From positions 1 to 47,210 of the forward strand of contig JAFGJG010000055.1 of NCBI GenBank assembly GCA_016929195.1: a stretch of DNA of 47,210 nucleotides, in the 5' to 3' direction. A program made the translations under genes and the position numbers. Below are positions 16,004 to 44,553 of this stretch, one piece after another. The stretch comes from Thermoleophilaceae bacterium. Its GTDB lineage: Bacteria > Actinomycetota > Thermoleophilia > Solirubrobacterales > Thermoleophilaceae. The notes under the pieces were generated by a model. It had not been told where the DNA came from and searched no databases. It was given only the letters and a program-made list of their open reading frames with translations. Position 1 is the first letter of the stretch. Every line of letters begins with the position of its first letter.

Positions 16004-16867
16004 ATGGGCGTCGTGACCATCGCCGAGCTTCGCGCGGGGGGCGAGGTCGACGGCGTGTTCGCGTGCACCCGCAAGGATCGCCTCACCGCGCGCAACGGAA
16101 CCCCCTATCTGGCAGTCGAGCTGCGCGACCGCACCGGCGCCATTCCCGGCCGCGCCTTCCGCGACGCGGACTTCCTCGCGGGCCAGTTCGAGCGCGGCGA
16201 CCTGGTGCAGGTTGCGGGCAAGGTGGAGCGCTTTCGCGACGAGCTCCAGGTCGAGCTGCGCGCCATCAAGACGGCGGAGGCCGATCCGTCGGAGTTCCTC
16301 CCCGTCGCCTACCGCGACCTGGACGAGCTCGACGGCTTCCTCGAGCACCTCGCCCGCGAGGTCTACGACCCGGACCTGGCCCGGCTGCTGCGCTCGTTCC
16401 TGGGCGACGAGGGCTTCCGCGCCGACTTCCGGCGCGCTCCGTGCACCCGCAACGGGCACCACGCCTACCTCGGCGGCCTGCTGGAGCACACCGTCGCGGT
16501 GGCCACGCTCGCGCAGGAGACGTGCGTCCTGCATCCGCGCCTCAACTCGGACCTGCTGATCTGCGCGGCGATCCTCCACGACGCCGGGAAGATCCAGGAG
16601 TTCGAGCTCGGCGCGGACATCGCGCTGAGCGAGGCGGGCGAGCTCCTCGGCCACGTGGCGCTCGGCCAGCAGCTCGTCGCCGAGCGGGCCCGCAGCCTCG
16701 GCGACGTCCCTGACGCGAAGCTGCACGCGCTCTCCCACTGCATCCTGGCCCATCACGGGGCCGACTCCCTGCCCGGCCGGCGCTTCAAGTCCGTCGAGGC
16801 GCTGGCGCTGTTTCGGCTCAACGCGCTGGATTCGGGGGTCAAGGGCGCGCTCGAGCACGGCCTCTAG
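16004..16867 (+). CDS. YhaM-like 3'-5' exoribonuclease (OB-fold plus HD domain)
   Basis: This 287-residue protein has an N-terminal OB-fold nucleic acid-binding domain at residues 5-90 (NGTPYLAVELRDRTGAIPGRAF, then GDLVQVAGKVERF). An HD phosphohydrolase domain follows, with GGLLEHTVAVA, the signature ILHDAGKIQEFE (H192, D193) and ILAHHGADS. This order is that of Bacillus YhaM/CbfA, which degrades RNA (and single-stranded DNA) from the 3' end. It is slightly shorter than YhaM (about 314 residues). The ATG at 16004 begins MGVVTIAEL; the open frame upstream is antisense to the PAC2 gene. The PAS gene starts 12 bp after its stop. Confidence 0.9.
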   Translation: MGVVTIAELRAGGEVDGVFACTRKDRLTARNGTPYLAVELRDRTGAIPGRAFRDADFLAGQFERGDLVQVAGKVERFRDELQVELRAIKTAEADPSEFLPVAYRDLDELDGFLEHLAREVYDPDLARLLRSFLGDEGFRADFRRAPCTRNGHHAYLGGLLEHTVAVATLAQETCVLHPRLNSDLLICAAILHDAGKIQEFELGADIALSEAGELLGHVALGQQLVAERARSLGDVPDAKLHALSHCILAHHGADSLPGRRFKSVEALALFRLNALDSGVKGALEHGL

Positions 16868-16879
16868 GGCGGCAGACAC

Positions 16880-19732
16880 ATGTTCGATGGCGGCTTGCAC
16901 GGGTCGTGGCCCGACCGCTTCCGACCGATTGACCATTTGGTGCCGAAAGAGTCGACGACCCTTGACGCCCTGGCCACGCCCGAAGCCGTCGAGCAGCTGC
17001 TCCGCCAGCTCGTCGACTCGCGCTTCGTGCTGACGGACAGGAGCGGCTGCATCACGCGCTGGAGCAGGCCCGCCGAGAGCATCTTCGGCTGGCCGGCGAG
17101 CGCGATGGTCGGCCGCGGCCTGCTCGAGACGCTGGCCATCCCCGGCGCGATTCCGGCGAACGGGGGCCACCTGGAGGCCGCGGCCCGCCGCAAGGACGGG
17201 TCGGAGGTCAAGGTCGACCTCACGCTCGTGCCGGTGCAGATGGCGCACAGCCTGGAGTTCAACGGCTTCCTCGAGGCACTCGAGATCGTCGGCCCGCGGG
17301 TGGCGGCACTGGAGCGGCTACAGCAGAGCCACCGGACCGTCGTCGAATGGATCGCCGCCGCGCTCGTCGGCCGCGCGGAGTCCCCGGAGGACCAGCCCGC
17401 GGGCACGATCGTCGCCTTCCGCGGCCTCGACGAGCCGCTCACCCTGCCTCCCGACGTGGAGGAGGCGGGCCGGGAGCCCCCCGAGCCGGGCGCCGCCGCG
17501 GCGCCCGCCCGCCTGGACGCGGAGCTGGCGGACGCACGCGCGCGGGCGGTGGCCGCCGCGGACCGGATCGCCGAGCTCGAGAGCGCGAGCGGGCGGCTCG
17601 ACACCGAGCTCGCCGAGGCGCGCGGTGCGATGGAGGAGATGCACGCCCACCTCGAGGAGCTGCGCGCGGAGCTGAAGGAGTCGCGGTCGGCGCTCGAGGA
17701 GCGCGATCGCAGCAGCCGGCACGAGCTGGAGACGCGGCTCGAGGAGACGCGTGAGGAGCTGTCGCAGCTCGGTGCGCGGCTCGGGGAGAGCCGCGAGGAC
17801 GAGCTCCAGGCCGACATCGAAAGGACGAAGGCGAGGCTCGCCGGGTTCGAGGAGCTTCTCGCGCAGCGCGACTACGGCACGCAGCTCGACGAGGCGCGCG
17901 CGCAGATCGCCGCGCTCGGCGAGGAGACGCGCGCCAAGGTCGCTGCTCTCGAGGAGGCCCTGGGCGACGACGACGCCGAGCGGCGCCTGCGCGACGAGCT
18001 TCACCAGACCGGCGCGAAGGTGGCCGCGCTCGAGCGAGCGCTCGCCGAGGACGCCCGGTTCGAGGAGCTGCGCGCGGCCCTGGATGCCGCGGCGGCCAAG
18101 CTCGCCGGCATCGAGCAGGCGCAGGCGGAGGACGATTCGCAGGAGCGGCTGCACGCGCAGATCGAGGCCGCGGCGCAGCGCGTCGAGCGGCTGGAGGGGA
18201 CGCTCGCGAGCTCGGGCGTCGAGGAGCGCCTGGCCGGCGAGCTGGACGCCACGCGCGCGCGTCTCGCCGAGCTGGAGCAGCGCCTGCGCTCCGAGACGGG
18301 AGAGGCCCAGGAGGTCGATCGCCTCGCGACGGAGCTCGAGGGGCTCCGCGCGTCCGTCGAGGCGCTGCGCTCCGCGCCGGTCCAGGCAGCGGTCGAGGGC
18401 GGGGCGGACCCGGCCGCCGTGGCCGAGCTGTCCGCGCTCCTCGAGCGCGCCCACGGGCTAGTGGCCGAGGTGGACGCCCGCGCGTCCGGAGTGGCCGAGG
18501 CCGTGGACGCCGCCGCCGGGCATTCCACGCATGCGGCCGAGGCGGCCGCGGCCGCCAGGTCGGCCGCCGAGCGCCAGGCCGAGGAGGCCGCCACGCAGTC
18601 GGAGGCACTGAGGCAGCTGAGCGCCGACGTACGCGAGCGCGCCGAGACCGCGCGCGAGGCCATGTCCACCGCCCACCAGGCGGCCGCCGCGGCTGTGGAG
18701 CACGCCGCGAAGAGCGCCGAGTCGGAGGCGGCGGCGAGGCGGCACAGCGAGGTGCAGGTGGAGGTCGAGGGCCGGATCGCCGAGGCGGAGCGGCTGGCCG
18801 AGAGCACCGCCGCGGAATCGCGGCGCGCTCAGGACGCTGCCGGCGCCGCCGAGGGGCACGCGTCGCGCGCCGCCGCTGCCGCCGGCGCCGCCGAGCAGAG
18901 CGGATCGCGAGCCGAGCAGAGCGCCACCCGCGCGGCCGAGGCCACGGGCGCGGCGGAACGGCACGCACACCAGGCGGGCGAGGCCGCCGGCGCGGCCGAC
19001 TCCCACGTGGAGGCGGCGCGCAGGGAGGTGGCCGCCGCGCACGCGCATGCCACGAAGGCCCACGAGGCCGCGGCTCCGGTCGAGGTGCGGATGACGCGCG
19101 CGGTCGACGCCGCCTCGGCGGCCGACGAGCACGCCGACCGCGCCGCGGAGCACGCCCGTGCCGCCGACGGCCACCTGAGCACGCTGGCCCGCGCCCAGGA
19201 GGCCGCGGAGAAGCTCGCCGCCCGCGCGGAGGCGGCCGCCGCAGCCGCCGAGCGTGCCGCCGCCGAGGCGCGCCGCGCGGCGGACGCGCAGCCGGCTCAC
19301 GGCGTGCCGGAGTGGAATGGAAACGGGGACGGCGGCCGCGCGCAGGAGGAGCGCCGCCCGCTCATCAAGCGCCGCCCCTCCGACAAGCCGCCGCGCGAGC
19401 CCCGCGCCGGCTTCGACGACGTGCCCAAGCCGCTCGCGAGCATCCGGCTCGACGGGCACTTCGGCGAGATCAACCCGGCCTTCAGCGAGCTGGTGGGCTA
19501 TCCCGAGCAGGAGTTCCAGGCGGCGAGCTGGCCTCCCGTGGCCGACCGCGCCAACCTCGCGAAGCACCGCGAGCAGCTGCAGTGCATGCTCGCCGGCGAG
19601 GTCGAGTCGGCGCGCGTCGACACCGGCTACGTGCACGCCCAGGGGCTGCTCGTCCCGGTCGTCGGCGAGATCTCGCTGGTCCGCGAGTCCGGCCAGCCGA
19701 GCCACTTCCTCCTGCAGGTGGACGCGAACTAG
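16880..19732 (+). CDS. Large PAS - coiled coil - PAS protein without a recognisable output domain
   Basis: The protein is 950 residues. Residues 35-140 form a PAS-like sensor (FVLTDRSGCITRWSRPAESI, then GWPASAMVGRGLLETL). Residues 195-510 are a heptad-rich acidic coiled coil (repeats of ELAEARGAMEEMHAHLEELR type). Residues 530-830 are an Ala-rich helical rod of loose 11- to 14-residue repeats (AAEATGAAERHAHQAGEAAG). A basic linker leads to a second PAS domain at 858-950 (GHFGEINPAFSELVGYPEQE). I find no kinase, GGDEF, EAL, cyclase, HTH, methyl-accepting or transmembrane segment. The layout suggests a long cytoplasmic rod with a sensor at each end, perhaps a scaffold or polarity protein. It follows the exoribonuclease gene by 12 bp and precedes the amidohydrolase by 28 bp. 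Confidence 0.85.
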   Translation: MFDGGLHGSWPDRFRPIDHLVPKESTTLDALATPEAVEQLLRQLVDSRFVLTDRSGCITRWSRPAESIFGWPASAMVGRGLLETLAIPGAIPANGGHLEAAARRKDGSEVKVDLTLVPVQMAHSLEFNGFLEALEIVGPRVAALERLQQSHRTVVEWIAAALVGRAESPEDQPAGTIVAFRGLDEPLTLPPDVEEAGREPPEPGAAAAPARLDAELADARARAVAAADRIAELESASGRLDTELAEARGAMEEMHAHLEELRAELKESRSALEERDRSSRHELETRLEETREELSQLGARLGESREDELQADIERTKARLAGFEELLAQRDYGTQLDEARAQIAALGEETRAKVAALEEALGDDDAERRLRDELHQTGAKVAALERALAEDARFEELRAALDAAAAKLAGIEQAQAEDDSQERLHAQIEAAAQRVERLEGTLASSGVEERLAGELDATRARLAELEQRLRSETGEAQEVDRLATELEGLRASVEALRSAPVQAAVEGGADPAAVAELSALLERAHGLVAEVDARASGVAEAVDAAAGHSTHAAEAAAAARSAAERQAEEAATQSEALRQLSADVRERAETAREAMSTAHQAAAAAVEHAAKSAESEAAARRHSEVQVEVEGRIAEAERLAESTAAESRRAQDAAGAAEGHASRAAAAAGAAEQSGSRAEQSATRAAEATGAAERHAHQAGEAAGAADSHVEAARREVAAAHAHATKAHEAAAPVEVRMTRAVDAASAADEHADRAAEHARAADGHLSTLARAQEAAEKLAARAEAAAAAAERAAAEARRAADAQPAHGVPEWNGNGDGGRAQEERRPLIKRRPSDKPPREPRAGFDDVPKPLASIRLDGHFGEINPAFSELVGYPEQEFQAASWPPVADRANLAKHREQLQCMLAGEVESARVDTGYVHAQGLLVPVVGEISLVRESGQPSHFLLQVDAN

Positions 19733-19746
19733 GGCGCGCGCGCCGG

Positions 19747-19752
19747 TAGGCT
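19747..19752 (+). promoter_or_regulatory. -10-like box TAGGCT for the amidohydrolase gene
   Basis: TAGGCT lies exactly 8 nt before the GTG at 19761, the same hexamer and spacing as at the epimerase-like gene (1425-1430). Confidence 0.45.
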
Positions 19753-19760
19753 GCGCCGCC

Positions 19761-20891
19761 GTGCAGTCCGATCCCGCGCTCCTCACCCTGCTCGACCGTG
19801 CGCGGGAGGAGGTCCCGGGCGTCGAGATCTACGACGCCCACACCCACCTCGGCGACAAGGACCCCGACGGGTTCCGCTGCACCGGCCCGGAGCTGCTCGA
19901 GCTGCTCGGGCGCGCCGACGCGCGCGGCGTCGTCTTCCCGATGCACGAGCCAGACGGCTATCCGCCGGCTAACGACATGGTCATCGCCGAGGCGGAGGCC
20001 TCGGACGGCCGGCTGGTCCCCTTCTGCCGGCTCGATCCCGAGGACGGGCCGCTCGCCGAGGCCGAGCGGGCCCTGGATGCGGGCGCGCGCGGCATCAAGC
20101 TCCACCCCCGGGCCGAGCGGTTCGCGCTGGACCACCCGGCCCTCCGCGACGTGTTCGCGCTCGCCGACGAGCGCCGCCTGCCGGTCCTGGTCCACGCGGG
20201 CCGGGGCATCCCGGCGCTCGGCCGGCACTCGGTCGAGGCCACCGGGCGCCACCCCGGCATGCGCCTGATCCTCGCCCACGCCGGCATCTCGGACCTGTCC
20301 TGGATCTGGCAGGAGGCGCCCTCCCACCCGAACCTCTTCTTCGACACCTCGTGGTGGGCGCCGACCGACCTCCAGGGCCTGCTGGCGCTGGTGCCCCCCG
20401 GACAGGTGCTGTTCGCGAGCGACGCCCCCTACGGCGCGACCGCGATGTCCGCCACGTGGGCGATCAGGCACGCGCTCCAGGTCGGGCTGACGCCGGACCA
20501 GGTGCGGAGCGTCATGGGCGGACAGCTGACCCGGCTGCTCGACGGCGAGGACCCGATCGACGCCGGCCCGGCGCGCGGGCCGGCGCCGCTGCCCACCGAC
20601 CCGCTGCTCGACCGCGCCCACACCTTCCTCGTGGCCTCGCTCGGCCAGGGCTTCGTCGGGCACGAGCCGGCCGAGACGCTCGCCCTCGCGCGGCTGGCCT
20701 GCGACGTGGGCGACGGCGTGCCGCACGCGGAGGTCTTCCGCTGGATCGATTGGCTGATCGAGAACCGCGCGCTCTACGACCCCGGCGGGCCCGAGCGCCC
20801 GGCGCGCTTCGCGAGCGGGCTGCCGCTGATCGTCCTGGCCAGCGTGCTGGCGCGCACGCCGGACGTGCCGCTGCCGCCGCTGCCGGACTAG
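19761..20891 (+). CDS. TIM-barrel metal-dependent hydrolase (amidohydrolase-2 family)
   Basis: This 376-residue protein has the amidohydrolase metal site. IYDAHTHLGD carries the HxH on the first strand. GIKLHPRAERFALDHP, VLVHAGRGIPALG and LILAHAGISDL follow, and FASDAPYGA holds the last-strand Asp. The C-terminal 110 residues after the barrel (TDPLLDRAHTFLVASLGQGF) form a helical extension. Relatives hydrolyse or decarboxylate small molecules such as ACMS and resorcylate; the substrate is unknown. The GTG at 19761 is chosen over upstream open frame because a TAGGCT box sits 8 nt before it and the PAS gene ends at 19732. Its stop shares CTAG with the stop of the convergent mpsC-like gene. Confidence 0.87.
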   Translation: MQSDPALLTLLDRAREEVPGVEIYDAHTHLGDKDPDGFRCTGPELLELLGRADARGVVFPMHEPDGYPPANDMVIAEAEASDGRLVPFCRLDPEDGPLAEAERALDAGARGIKLHPRAERFALDHPALRDVFALADERRLPVLVHAGRGIPALGRHSVEATGRHPGMRLILAHAGISDLSWIWQEAPSHPNLFFDTSWWAPTDLQGLLALVPPGQVLFASDAPYGATAMSATWAIRHALQVGLTPDQVRSVMGGQLTRLLDGEDPIDAGPARGPAPLPTDPLLDRAHTFLVASLGQGFVGHEPAETLALARLACDVGDGVPHAEVFRWIDWLIENRALYDPGGPERPARFASGLPLIVLASVLARTPDVPLPPLPD

Positions 20892-21232
20892 TCGCCTGAT
20901 TCCGGCTCGGGCTCGAGCACGAACATCTCGAAGCCCATGGGCGGGTCGAAGACGACCTGGCTGTGGTAGGTCAGCACGTTGCGGCCCATCGCCTCAGCCA
21001 CCGCCTTCTTGAAGCGCTCCGCCTCGATCTCCTGGAAGGTCAGCCGCACCTTCCGGACCAGCTCCTGCTCACCGGACTCCACGAGCGTCCGCTCGACCGT
21101 CGTGAGGATGTCCTCGAGCACGGTCACGACGTAGTTGTCGAACGCGTAGCTCTTCGCCTTGGTCGGGCCGCGTCCGTAGCTCTCTCTGAAGATCGCGACG
21201 ACGGCGTTGGACACCGCCGCTAGCTGCTCCAC
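20888..21232 (-). CDS. MpsC-like (DUF2294) protein
   Basis: This 114-residue soluble protein matches the DUF2294/MpsC domain: VVAIFRESYGRGPTKAKSYA, then YVVTVLEDILTTVERTLVESG, then ERFKKAVAEAMGRNVLTYHS. MpsC is named from a membrane-potential-generating (Na+/bicarbonate) system in staphylococci, but single DUF2294 proteins are widespread and their role is open. The gene starts at the base directly after the sigma factor stop (21233), so translation is very likely coupled. A small soluble protein so tightly linked to a sigma gene may be a regulator of that sigma factor; this is inference only. Confidence 0.82.
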   Translation of the reverse strand: MEQLAAVSNAVVAIFRESYGRGPTKAKSYAFDNYVVTVLEDILTTVERTLVESGEQELVRKVRLTFQEIEAERFKKAVAEAMGRNVLTYHSQVVFDPPMGFEMFVLEPEPESGD

Positions 21233-41810: not shown

Positions 41811-43133
41811 GTGGCCCCGGTAGCGCGCTACGCCCGCAGCGGTGACGTGCACATCGCCTACATCGTGGAGGGCGAGGGCCCCGTGGACCTCGTGTGGATC
41901 CCGCCCTGGATCTCGCAGGTCGAGTACCTCTGGTCCGAGGCCTCGCTGGCCGGCGTGCTCGAGCGGCTGAAGCGCTTCGCCCGCGTGATCACCTTCGACC
42001 GGCGCGGCTCGGGGCTCTCGGATCCGCTGATCGGAGCGCCCACGATTGAGGAGCAGATGGACGACGTGCTCGCTGTGCTCGATGCGGCCGGCACCGACCG
42101 CGCCGCGATCGCCGCCACGCTGGAGGGAGGGCCGATGGCCGCGATGTTCGCGGCCACGCATCCCGACCGCGTGAGCCACCTGATCATGTACGCCACCTTC
42201 GCCCGGGCCGTCTGGGCGCCGGACTACGACTGGGCCTACCCCGCGGAGGAGCGCACGGGGAAGATGAACGCCGCGCTCGAGCACTGGGGGGAGGGGCTCG
42301 TGGCCGGGAGCGTGGCCGAGAGCCGGATGGGCGACCCGCGCTTCATGGAGTGGGCCGGCCGGCTCGAGCGGCTCGCGGCCAGCCCGGGCACGATCGCGCG
42401 GATCTTCGAGCTGATCGGGGAGTTCGACGTCCGCGAGGTGCTTCCCTCGATCCGCGTGCCCACGCTCGTGATGCACCGCCGCGACGACACCTTCATCAAG
42501 GTGGAGCACTCGCGCTACATCGCGAAGCATGTCCCCGGTGCGCGCTACGTGGAGCTCGAGGGCGCCGACAACATGTTCGCCGTCGGGGACACAGAGGCGA
42601 TCATGGGCGAGATCGAGGAGTTCATCACCGGCACGCGGCTTGCCGTGGAGCCGGACCGGATGCTCGCGACGGTGCTGTTCACGGACATCGTGGACTCCAC
42701 CCGCCGCGCCGCCGACCTCGGCGACAGCAGCTGGCGCGAGGTGCTCGAGCGCCACGACCAGCTCTTCAGGCGCGAGCTGGAGCTCCACCGGGGCCGCGAG
42801 GTCAAGCGCACGGGCGACGGCTTCCTCGCCACCTTCGACGGGCCCGCGCGGGCGATCCGCTGCGCCGCATCGATCACGCAGTCGGTGGAGGCGCTGGGGC
42901 TCGAGCTGCGCGCGGGGCTCCACACAGGCGAGCTGGAGGTGATGAGCGACGACCTCGGCGGGCTGGCGGTGCACATCGCCGCGCGTGTCATGGCGGCCGC
43001 CGATGCGGGCGAGGTGCTCGTCTCCGGCACGGTCAAGGACCTCGTCGTGGGCTCTGGAATCGACTTCGAGGACCGCGGGACGCACGAGCTTCGGGGCGTG
43101 CCGGGCGACTGGCGACTTTTCAGGGTGACCTGA
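41811..43133 (+). CDS. Alpha/beta-hydrolase-like domain fused to class III adenylate/guanylate cyclase
   Basis: This 440-residue protein has an alpha/beta-hydrolase fold at 1-270 (AYIVEGEGPVDLVWIPPW, VITFDRRGSGLSDP, MHRRDDTFIKVEHS). A class III cyclase catalytic domain follows at about 280-440 (LFTDIVDSTRRAADLGD near 288, VKRTGDGFLATFDGPARAI near 335, AARVMAAADAGEVLVSG). The metal Asp residues are present. In the hydrolase part the nucleophile elbow reads ATLEG (L104 in place of Ser) and the His position reads GADNM (Asn in place of His). This domain is probably a ligand sensor, not an enzyme. It starts at GTG 41811, 29 bp from the divergent ThDP-enzyme start. ATP or GTP preference is not decided. 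Confidence 0.88.
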   Translation: MAPVARYARSGDVHIAYIVEGEGPVDLVWIPPWISQVEYLWSEASLAGVLERLKRFARVITFDRRGSGLSDPLIGAPTIEEQMDDVLAVLDAAGTDRAAIAATLEGGPMAAMFAATHPDRVSHLIMYATFARAVWAPDYDWAYPAEERTGKMNAALEHWGEGLVAGSVAESRMGDPRFMEWAGRLERLAASPGTIARIFELIGEFDVREVLPSIRVPTLVMHRRDDTFIKVEHSRYIAKHVPGARYVELEGADNMFAVGDTEAIMGEIEEFITGTRLAVEPDRMLATVLFTDIVDSTRRAADLGDSSWREVLERHDQLFRRELELHRGREVKRTGDGFLATFDGPARAIRCAASITQSVEALGLELRAGLHTGELEVMSDDLGGLAVHIAARVMAAADAGEVLVSGTVKDLVVGSGIDFEDRGTHELRGVPGDWRLFRVT

Positions 43134-43152
43134 AGCCCCGCTACCTTCGGCC

Positions 43153-43158
43153 GATATA
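43153..43158 (+). promoter_or_regulatory. -10-like box GATATA for the SpoIID-like gene
   Basis: GATATA lies 6 nt before the GTG at 43165. An alternative TATAGG register leaves 4 nt. A leaderless-type start is likely because no Shine-Dalgarno is evident. Confidence 0.38.
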
Positions 43159-43164
43159 GGGGTT

Positions 43165-44553
43165 GTGGCACAGATGCGCCGGGCAGTTCTGCTCATAGCC
43201 GCCGTGCTCGCGCTCGCCGTCCCGGCGAGCGCCGACGCCGCGACCCGTTTCGTCGTGCGCGGCGCGGGCTGGGGCCACGGCATCGGCATGAGCCAGTACG
43301 GCGCATACGGCTACGCGCTGGAGGGCCGCGGCTACCGCTCGATCCTCTCGCACTACTACACGGGCACGCGCCTCGAGCAGGCGTCGCAGCGCTCGGTGCG
43401 CGTCATGCTCCAGCCCGACGACCCGTACATCCGCGTGCGGGGCGCCACGCGCGCGTCCGGCGGCAAGCGGCTGAGCCCCTCGAAGACCTACGTCGCGCGG
43501 CCCTCCGGAGGACGGATCGCCCTGTTCACGTCCGGGGGCAGGCGCGTCGGGCGCTTCTCGTCCGGCCTGCGGCTCACGCGGCCCGGGGGGATCCTGCGTC
43601 TGCTCGGCCCGGCGCTGAACGGCGTGAGCGACGGCCGCTACCGCGGCGCGATCGAGATCCTGGCCGGGGGCGGCCTCGACGCGATCAACGTCCTGTCGCT
43701 GGACGACTACGTGCGCGGGGTGGTGGCCGGCGAGATGCCGGCCTCGTGGCCGCTCGAGGCGCTCAAGGCCCAGGCCGTGACGGCGCGCACCTACGCGCTG
43801 GCCACCCGTCATCCGGAGGGCCCCTTCGACCTCTATCCCGACACGCGCTCACAGGTGTACCGCGGCGTGGCCGCCGAGGGCGTGCGCAGCAACGCCGCGG
43901 TGAGCGGGACGGCGGGCCGCATCCTCACGTACGGGGGAGCGCCCGCCGTGACCTACTACTTCTCGACCTCGGGCGGCCACACGGAGAGCGTCCAGTACTC
44001 GTTCGTGGGCAGCCTGAGCAAGCCGTGGCTCGTGGGCGTGCCCGACCCGTACGACTTCCACTCGCCGTACCACCGCTGGCGGGCCTCGTTCACCAGGAGC
44101 CAGCTCACGCGGGCGCTCGGCGCGCTCGGGACGTTCCGCAAGCTGAAGGTGGTGAAGCGCGGCACCTCGCCGCGGATCGTCCGGGCGCAGGTGGTGGGCA
44201 GCCGCGGCACGCGGAAGATCAGCGGCCCGGACATCAGGGGCGCCCTCGGGCTGCGCGACACGTGGGCGCGCTTCACCCGCGTATCCACCGCGGCGCGCGC
44301 CTCGCACGGGACCCCGGTCGGAAGGGCGGCGCTGGCGGGCTTCCCGCCCGCCCGGGCGACGATCCACGGCAGCCTCGACCCGGCCCCGAAGCGCGCGCTG
44401 CTCGTGGTCGAGCGACGCCTTGCGGGGCGATGGGTGAAGGTCCGGCGGGTTCGCATGGGCTCACGCGGCCGCTACCGGGCCGACGTGAGTGCGCGCGGCG
44501 TCTACCGCGTGCGGGCCGGCGTCATCGCCGGGCCGGCAGTGCGGGTGCGCTGA
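43165..44553 (+). CDS. Secreted SpoIID/LytB-domain protein (peptidoglycan lytic type)
   Basis: This 462-residue protein has a signal peptide (MRRAVLLIAAVLALAVPASA, cleavage near ADA-AT at 24-26). The conserved opening FVVRGAGWGHGIGMSQYGAYG follows at about 28-48. The SpoIID/LytB core has LDDYVRGVVAGEMPASWPLE near 180 and LKAQAVTARTYALA, then YYFSTSGGHTESV and the WRASFTRSQL block. The last about 80 residues form a beta-rich, basic domain. SpoIID is a lytic transglycosylase acting in Bacillus spore engulfment, but LytB-type homologues occur in many non-sporulating actinobacteria and act in wall remodelling. It starts at GTG 43165, with an ATG 9 nt later as alternative. The last 32 bp overlap the SGNH gene in antisense. 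Confidence 0.92.
   Translation: MAQMRRAVLLIAAVLALAVPASADAATRFVVRGAGWGHGIGMSQYGAYGYALEGRGYRSILSHYYTGTRLEQASQRSVRVMLQPDDPYIRVRGATRASGGKRLSPSKTYVARPSGGRIALFTSGGRRVGRFSSGLRLTRPGGILRLLGPALNGVSDGRYRGAIEILAGGGLDAINVLSLDDYVRGVVAGEMPASWPLEALKAQAVTARTYALATRHPEGPFDLYPDTRSQVYRGVAAEGVRSNAAVSGTAGRILTYGGAPAVTYYFSTSGGHTESVQYSFVGSLSKPWLVGVPDPYDFHSPYHRWRASFTRSQLTRALGALGTFRKLKVVKRGTSPRIVRAQVVGSRGTRKISGPDIRGALGLRDTWARFTRVSTAARASHGTPVGRAALAGFPPARATIHGSLDPAPKRALLVVERRLAGRWVKVRRVRMGSRGRYRADVSARGVYRVRAGVIAGPAVRVR

Follow-up and report, generated by a model that had tools for sequence, protein, structure and literature searches.

FrzS and AglZ, the latter grouped with the former, both have a long coiled coil; FimX is a PAS protein that lacks a rod comparable to the ~590-residue rod described below; HmpF, a cyanobacterial protein without PAS ends, has a role in type IV pilus (T4P) motility; and scaffolds of the PodJ/SpmX type are membrane-anchored. 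According to the parts of the published studies drawn on here, FrzS of Myxococcus has a non-enzymatic sensor-type domain and acts in T4P-driven movement (PMC1974792, PMC3158785, PMC11580455), FimX of Pseudomonas and Xanthomonas is tied to PilB (PMC5595344, PMC8389850), and a polar scaffold of the PodJ/SpmX type acts on a PAS-bearing kinase (PMC8980812). In Rubrobacter, WhiG-type promoters stand before the T4P cluster and before DGC/PDE genes, and Thermoleophilia have the same single-motif RsiG as Rubrobacter, as far as the sections of that study used here report (PMC8325347). In the literature found, this WhiG/c-di-GMP switch on pili in early-branching actinobacteria is described at the promoter level only, and no PAS-rod-PAS pilus protein of the group was found among the titles and abstract openings of the open-licence literature.

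The gene considered here lies in a stretch of 47,210 nucleotides of a Thermoleophilaceae genome (the window). It runs from an ATG at position 16880 to a stop at 19732 and codes for 950 residues; GC3 is 0.91-0.95 over the whole frame, and it is therefore a real coding gene. Its features, together with a promoter-like site upstream, are as follows.

16839 to 16866, forward strand: weak WhiG-like site TCAA-N17-GCCTCTA, with two mismatches, within the 3'-terminal part of the HD gene
16880 to 19732, forward strand: PAS - helical rod - PAS protein of 950 amino acids (ORF, codon bias, AF2)
17024 to 17425, forward strand: N-terminal PAS domain (residues 49-182) with an insertion ahead of its last strand (Pfam, AF2)
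17240 to 17395, forward strand: predicted insertion of three helices (residues 121-172) separating the final two PAS strands (AF2 model)
17513 to 18409, forward strand: charged coiled coil, residues 212-510, period 3.40 (periodicity, AF2)
17933 to 18256, forward strand: four 27-residue repeats, residues 352-459 (self-match)
18410 to 19288, forward strand: Ala-rich heptad coil, residues 511-803, period 3.50 (periodicity, AF2)
19289 to 19423, forward strand: basic Pro/Arg-rich flexible linker, residues 804-848 (low pLDDT, alignment, composition)
19424 to 19729, forward strand: C-terminal PAS domain, residues 849-950 (AF2, NCBIfam, alignment)

The N-terminal PAS domain is matched by Pfam (PAS, E 5.6e-9), and its AF2 model (residues 1-240, 21 sequences) aligns with PAS/LOV structures over the model range 44-184 (VIA-align, Z 10.2, rmsd 2.0, 94 residues). 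In this model the last two strands (residues 109-120 and 173-182) are split by three helices, and the insertion region occurs in all 21 aligned N-regions. At the C-terminus the Pfam PAS match is weak, and NCBIfam assigns a sensory box (TIGR00229, best stretch 842-947); the AF2 elements at residues 852-947 (pLDDT 77-91) correspond to a solved PAS domain with Z 14.0 and rmsd 2.4 over 106 residues. A search of solved structures by sequence with the C-PAS alignment gave no match. Prediction thereby places a PAS fold at either end of the protein, the full-length AF2 model having a mean pLDDT of 66 with 11 sequences in the alignment. The C-terminal PAS is also the best conserved part, the last 170 residues being 32-43% identical to those of the 14 other complete family members described below.

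Between the two domains, residues 212-803 form long helices in the full-length model (~590 residues), and in both halves of this rod the hydrophobic-residue period lies beyond that of 200 shuffles. The charged half (209-510) has a periodicity peak at 3.40 and four clean 27-residue repeats. The Ala-rich half (about 510-815; 38% Ala) shows a sharp 3.50-residue period (power 22, equalled in 0 of 200 shuffles) and a top self-match offset of 14, which is two heptads; the periodicity analysis found no 11-residue period in it. Judged from its residue pattern, this half is an ordinary heptad coil. The linker that follows carries a motif, REPRxGFDD, common to the window protein and most members of genus g52.

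No output domain was found in the protein by Pfam or NCBIfam; kinase, cyclase, chemoreceptor, diguanylate cyclase or other signalling and catalytic domains went unmatched in both, and a kinase, cyclase or receptor output was rejected on these grounds. The highest 19-residue Kyte-Doolittle mean (1.24) falls within the C-terminal PAS, with no membrane segment anywhere in the protein. An earlier sequence-only reading of this DNA had described a 950-residue protein with a PAS domain at each end, the C-terminal one included, a long helical rod between them and neither output domain nor membrane segment, all of which the present analysis upholds. The reading was also right that the rod is first charged and then Ala-rich, but the Ala-rich repeats of 11 to 14 residues that it saw are a plain heptad coil.

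The N-region alignment was searched against 232 genomes of the order, of which 76 gave a match, mostly to the PAS part only. Membership was defined by a rule of our own, i.e., at least 80 bits and a match extending beyond the PAS into the part that follows it. The family so defined, which has not been named so far, occurs in at least 22 of the 232 genomes; its counts are lower bounds, since 12 candidates per genome were scored in the order search and seven in a sample of the class. In that class sample (399 genomes, seven candidates per genome) at least 18 genomes score 173 bits or more, all of them inside the order, and the next scores 86. The class-sample model was built with members, and the result therefore shows the absence of the family elsewhere; the drop from 173 bits to 86 confirms the membership rule. 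A scan of genome contigs gave a PAS in Duganella as its sole match. A second match in its own genome (L028) was rejected as a rod paralogue; by eye it is a PAS-GAF membrane protein ending in a phosphatase-like region.

Seventeen members lack an output domain, 15 of them complete with both PAS ends and two cut by contig ends (G112, G146). The architecture thus recurs in related genomes. A catalytic or DNA-binding domain missed in homologues would, by the sequence-only reading, have counted against it; an EAL domain does follow the rod or coil in five relatives, but not in the window gene or the 16 other output-less members. The complete output-less proteins range from 719 to 2042 amino acids and their rods from 364 to 1687 residues. 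Conservation holds for the ends but not for the rod, and rod length is therefore no fixed ruler across the family. Near-identical tandem repeats occur in the g52 rods (loci L113-L119), where the self-match offsets are 16, 17, 27 and 34 residues. Two close relatives in this set of proteins, G218 and G219, have 1568 and 1518 residues, respectively; since such near-identical proteins differ by 50 residues, the g52 rods appear to be growing and contracting at present.

GCCGAT, a -10 element of the WhiG/FliA type, occurs within 75 nt upstream of 14 of the 17 output-less members; among 177 other genes in these loci, 13 have it (p 1.5e-11 by Fisher's test, without correction for kinship). Neighbour and background genes were called by a simple script, and their starts are approximate. 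The g52 pilB and pilT genes are themselves among these 13. In genus g17 all five members share CTCAAC-N14-GCCGATAGGG, with a spacing of 15 between TCAA and GCCGATA and of 8 nt between GCCGATA and the ATG. Corresponding 5' sides are GCCGATGA in six of the seven g52 members, TCAAGG..GCCGATGG in G204, GCCGATTA in G223 and CTCAAGG..GCCGATCC in G016. GCCGAT is absent upstream of the window gene, G023 and G146, and upstream of the four EAL-type members tested, the latter counting against a pilus reading.

A sigma factor of the WhiG/FliA type was above the cut-off in all eight genomes tested. The nearest solved chains to that of the window genome are 6pfj/6pfv, presumably Streptomyces WhiG, with 268 bits to 6pfj versus 186 to a FliA. 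A scan for the RsiG motif found none within ~3.7 kb around each WhiG gene, the span of the scan. The window genome has eight copies of the stricter motif TCAA-N14-17-GCCGATA (none in the reversed control); there are 11 in G016, seven in G054, 10 in G220 and eight in G204 (reversed controls 1, 4, 0 and 0, respectively). The G054 family gene is one of the seven exact matches in its genome, and the control of four counts against the pilus reading.

Genes downstream of the stricter motif were drawn from the loci of 30 of the 36 motif matches; 32 start no more than 60 nt from the motif, and 18 of these, picked by eye, were examined with Pfam. Four are T4P genes (PilT, two PilD and PilN). Six are related to c-di-GMP, namely one PilZ, four GGDEF (one with an HD-GYP-like HD_5) and one GAF-HD_5. 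Motility and chemotaxis are represented by one FliI-like protein and one MCP; the remainder comprises two HDOD-LuxR proteins, a PAS, a histidine kinase, a STAS and a GT87. The HDOD-LuxR (GerE) fusions stand behind a WhiG-type motif in the window genome and in G054 (L106, L147), and they are possible second-tier regulators of a pilus regulon.

The gene neighbourhoods of two genera contain pilus genes. In g52 the order is alaS-ruvX-[family gene]-yceG/mltG-pilB-pilT-pilC, checked with Pfam in L115, where pilB combines T2SSE with an MshEN domain; in L116, inspection by eye gives this order up to pilT, where the locus ends. In g15 the family gene is directly followed by three genes with pilin-like N-termini, one of them matched by Pfam (N_methyl). 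The g52 adjacency could also be a chance insertion into a fixed gene order, and the family loci of g17 and G204, which are not in pilus operons, count against the pilus reading. PilM was found in 20 of the 22 member genomes compared to 110 of 210 others (p 2.7e-4, kinship not corrected); both genomes without a match, G023 (88% complete) and G020 (81%), are incomplete assemblies. The window genome encodes PilM, PilC, PilD and PilO, plus a PilN just under the cut-off, on contig C167, and PilT on contig C115 with an exact WhiG-type motif upstream. Context gives good support to an association of the family with type IV pili in several genera.

We therefore propose, with moderate confidence, that the family protein is a cytoplasmic PAS-rod-PAS scaffold of the T4P regulatory circuit, expressed with the pilus regulon and probably dimeric. 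The sequence-only reading had suggested a ligand-responsive cytoskeletal or polar scaffold; the scaffold type with sensor ends and without output stands, now as a conserved family with 17 output-less members, and type IV pili are its recurring link. From the architecture we infer the mode of action, and likewise dimerisation, polar location and the identity of partners. The PAS domain at each end would sense a ligand or redox state, or dock a partner, and the coiled-coil rod of variable length would separate the two ends or allow assembly at a particular place, for instance the cell pole. Having no enzyme of its own, the protein would work by positioning or releasing partners, for which the pilus motor ATPases and c-di-GMP proteins are candidates.

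It is unlikely, in our estimate, that the protein is instead a general cytoskeletal or cell-pole scaffold without a tie to pili, its promoter and neighbours reflecting co-expression with motility genes. Long coiled-coil proteins of such size commonly build scaffolds of this kind, and the loci of the window, G204 and g17 show no pilus genes; this account, however, leaves unexplained both the pilus neighbourhood in two genera and the occurrence of PilM in 20 of 22 member genomes.

The EAL-type members bear on a further alternative. In G007 and G020 (the latter cut at its N-end) the rod and C-terminal PAS are followed by EAL, and G013, G022 and G027 consist of an N-terminal PAS, a short coil and EAL. 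In all four EAL domains aligned, another residue stands in place of the AEGVE-loop Glu, a change which we take to abolish c-di-GMP cleavage and which would leave a binding, non-cleaving domain. The PAS-coil-EAL relatives (L068, L069, L122, L123, L124) are, by their sequences, candidate c-di-GMP-binding proteins that would not cleave it, FimX-like in idea. The family could accordingly be a c-di-GMP network adaptor, kin to PAS-rod-PAS-EAL proteins by loss or gain of EAL, whose putative mixed PAS dimers tune PAS-GGDEF/EAL enzymes; the wealth of GGDEF and HD-GYP genes behind the motif agrees with this. We rate it as distinctly improbable: the family trees favour neither loss nor gain of EAL, the long branches G000, G007 and G204 being placed unsurely, and the proposal overlaps with that of a pilus scaffold.

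A flagellar or chemotaxis accessory role would fit the sharing of the promoter motif with FliI and an MCP, and flagellin is found in 13 of 22 member genomes compared to 66 of 210 others (p 0.010, kinship not corrected). Nine members lack a flagellin match, however, the window genome among them, and the retention of the gene in such genomes weakens this role to the point where we consider it most improbable.

In the sequence-only reading the gene forms a cluster with two neighbours, an HD exoribonuclease and an amidohydrolase. This is correct on the map (the HD gene is YhaM-like) but is not a meaningful link. In-frame queries with the two neighbours found no homologue of either in 29 loci, of which 21 are the other family loci, and the idea that the neighbours travel with the gene fails in G001, where HD and amidohydrolase lie ~32 nt apart with nothing between. 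In G002 another gene, on the opposite strand, separates the two. The HD exoribonuclease and the amidohydrolase were thus rejected as functional partners, both congeners keeping the pair without the family gene. Compared with these two congeners, the window genome therefore has an additional gene at this site. The gap (window 16865-19761) appears as a small variable site, holding the family gene, nothing or an opposite-strand gene in the three congeners. Further on, an MpsC-type small protein (20888-21232) adjoins a sigma-70 gene, and a relative of it lies near the G054 family gene (L066:14100-14432).

No WhiG/FliA-type consensus promoter was found upstream of the window gene. The weak site listed above was rejected as its promoter: its TCAA falls within the HD coding sequence, in conserved Val-Lys codons that are shared by G001, a genome without the family gene; sites of this type occur at ~0.004 per 75 nt in the window, and this one is probably fortuitous. 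Elsewhere in the window, a SpoIID-domain protein (43165-44553; region 43120-44553) is preceded by GGCCGATATAGGGG, with GCCGATA 8 nt from the start and TGAAG upstream, possibly a WhiG-type promoter inside the window itself. No pilus gene was seen at the window locus, which counts against the pilus reading. Since the window gene has no consensus promoter, its pilus role is drawn from its relatives, and since it also lies apart from pilus genes, it is less sure that this copy shares the role of the family. The least probable account, to which we give very little credence, is that of a stray copy acquired into the HD-amidohydrolase gap without a promoter and since deprived of function: it would agree with the absence of the gene from both congeners, the missing consensus promoter and a long branch in the tree, but it relies on two assemblies that are 84% and 91% complete and is opposed by a 950-codon frame that is intact and shows full codon bias, and by both predicted PAS folds.

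Taken as a scaffold of the pilus regulon, the family is a concrete, testable protein target of the WhiG/c-di-GMP regulon and would link PAS sensing to pili in a phylum where such a link has received little study. The naturally varied rod lengths, set between the same ends, offer a probe of the effect of coiled-coil length. More tentatively, and with considerable doubt on our part, the family may represent T4P regulators of a new class: a PAS-rod-PAS tether without an output domain would have evolved alongside an EAL-tipped form, the PAS with inserted helices would dock the pilus motor, rod length would set the reach, and duplication of repeats would expand the rods while the ends are conserved.

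By analogy, the family resembles FrzS and FimX and is a member of neither. Like FrzS and AglZ, the window protein combines a sensor-type end without an enzyme with a long coiled coil, but FrzS has an atypical receiver domain, whereas the window protein has PAS at both ends, its N-terminal domain being a PAS; neither Pfam nor NCBIfam finds a receiver domain in it. A match to NF007298 (NCBIfam) covers the PAS part only. Unlike PodJ and SpmX, which are membrane-anchored, the protein lacks a membrane segment. HmpF and other cyanobacterial coiled-coil-rich proteins are likewise coiled-coil proteins tied to T4P motility, in a different phylum and without PAS ends. The PAS-rod-PAS gene is unmentioned in the main text of the Rubrobacter regulon study ('pas', 0 occurrences), and the portions used describe a WhiG-RsiG-c-di-GMP pilus regulon with the same sigma class, -10 element and target classes, pil and DGC/PDE (PMC8325347). 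FimX has both GGDEF and EAL, each degenerate, whereas the window protein has neither and five relatives have EAL alone; the two nevertheless share the character of a PAS protein tied to T4P and c-di-GMP, with an altered EAL site in the EAL relatives.
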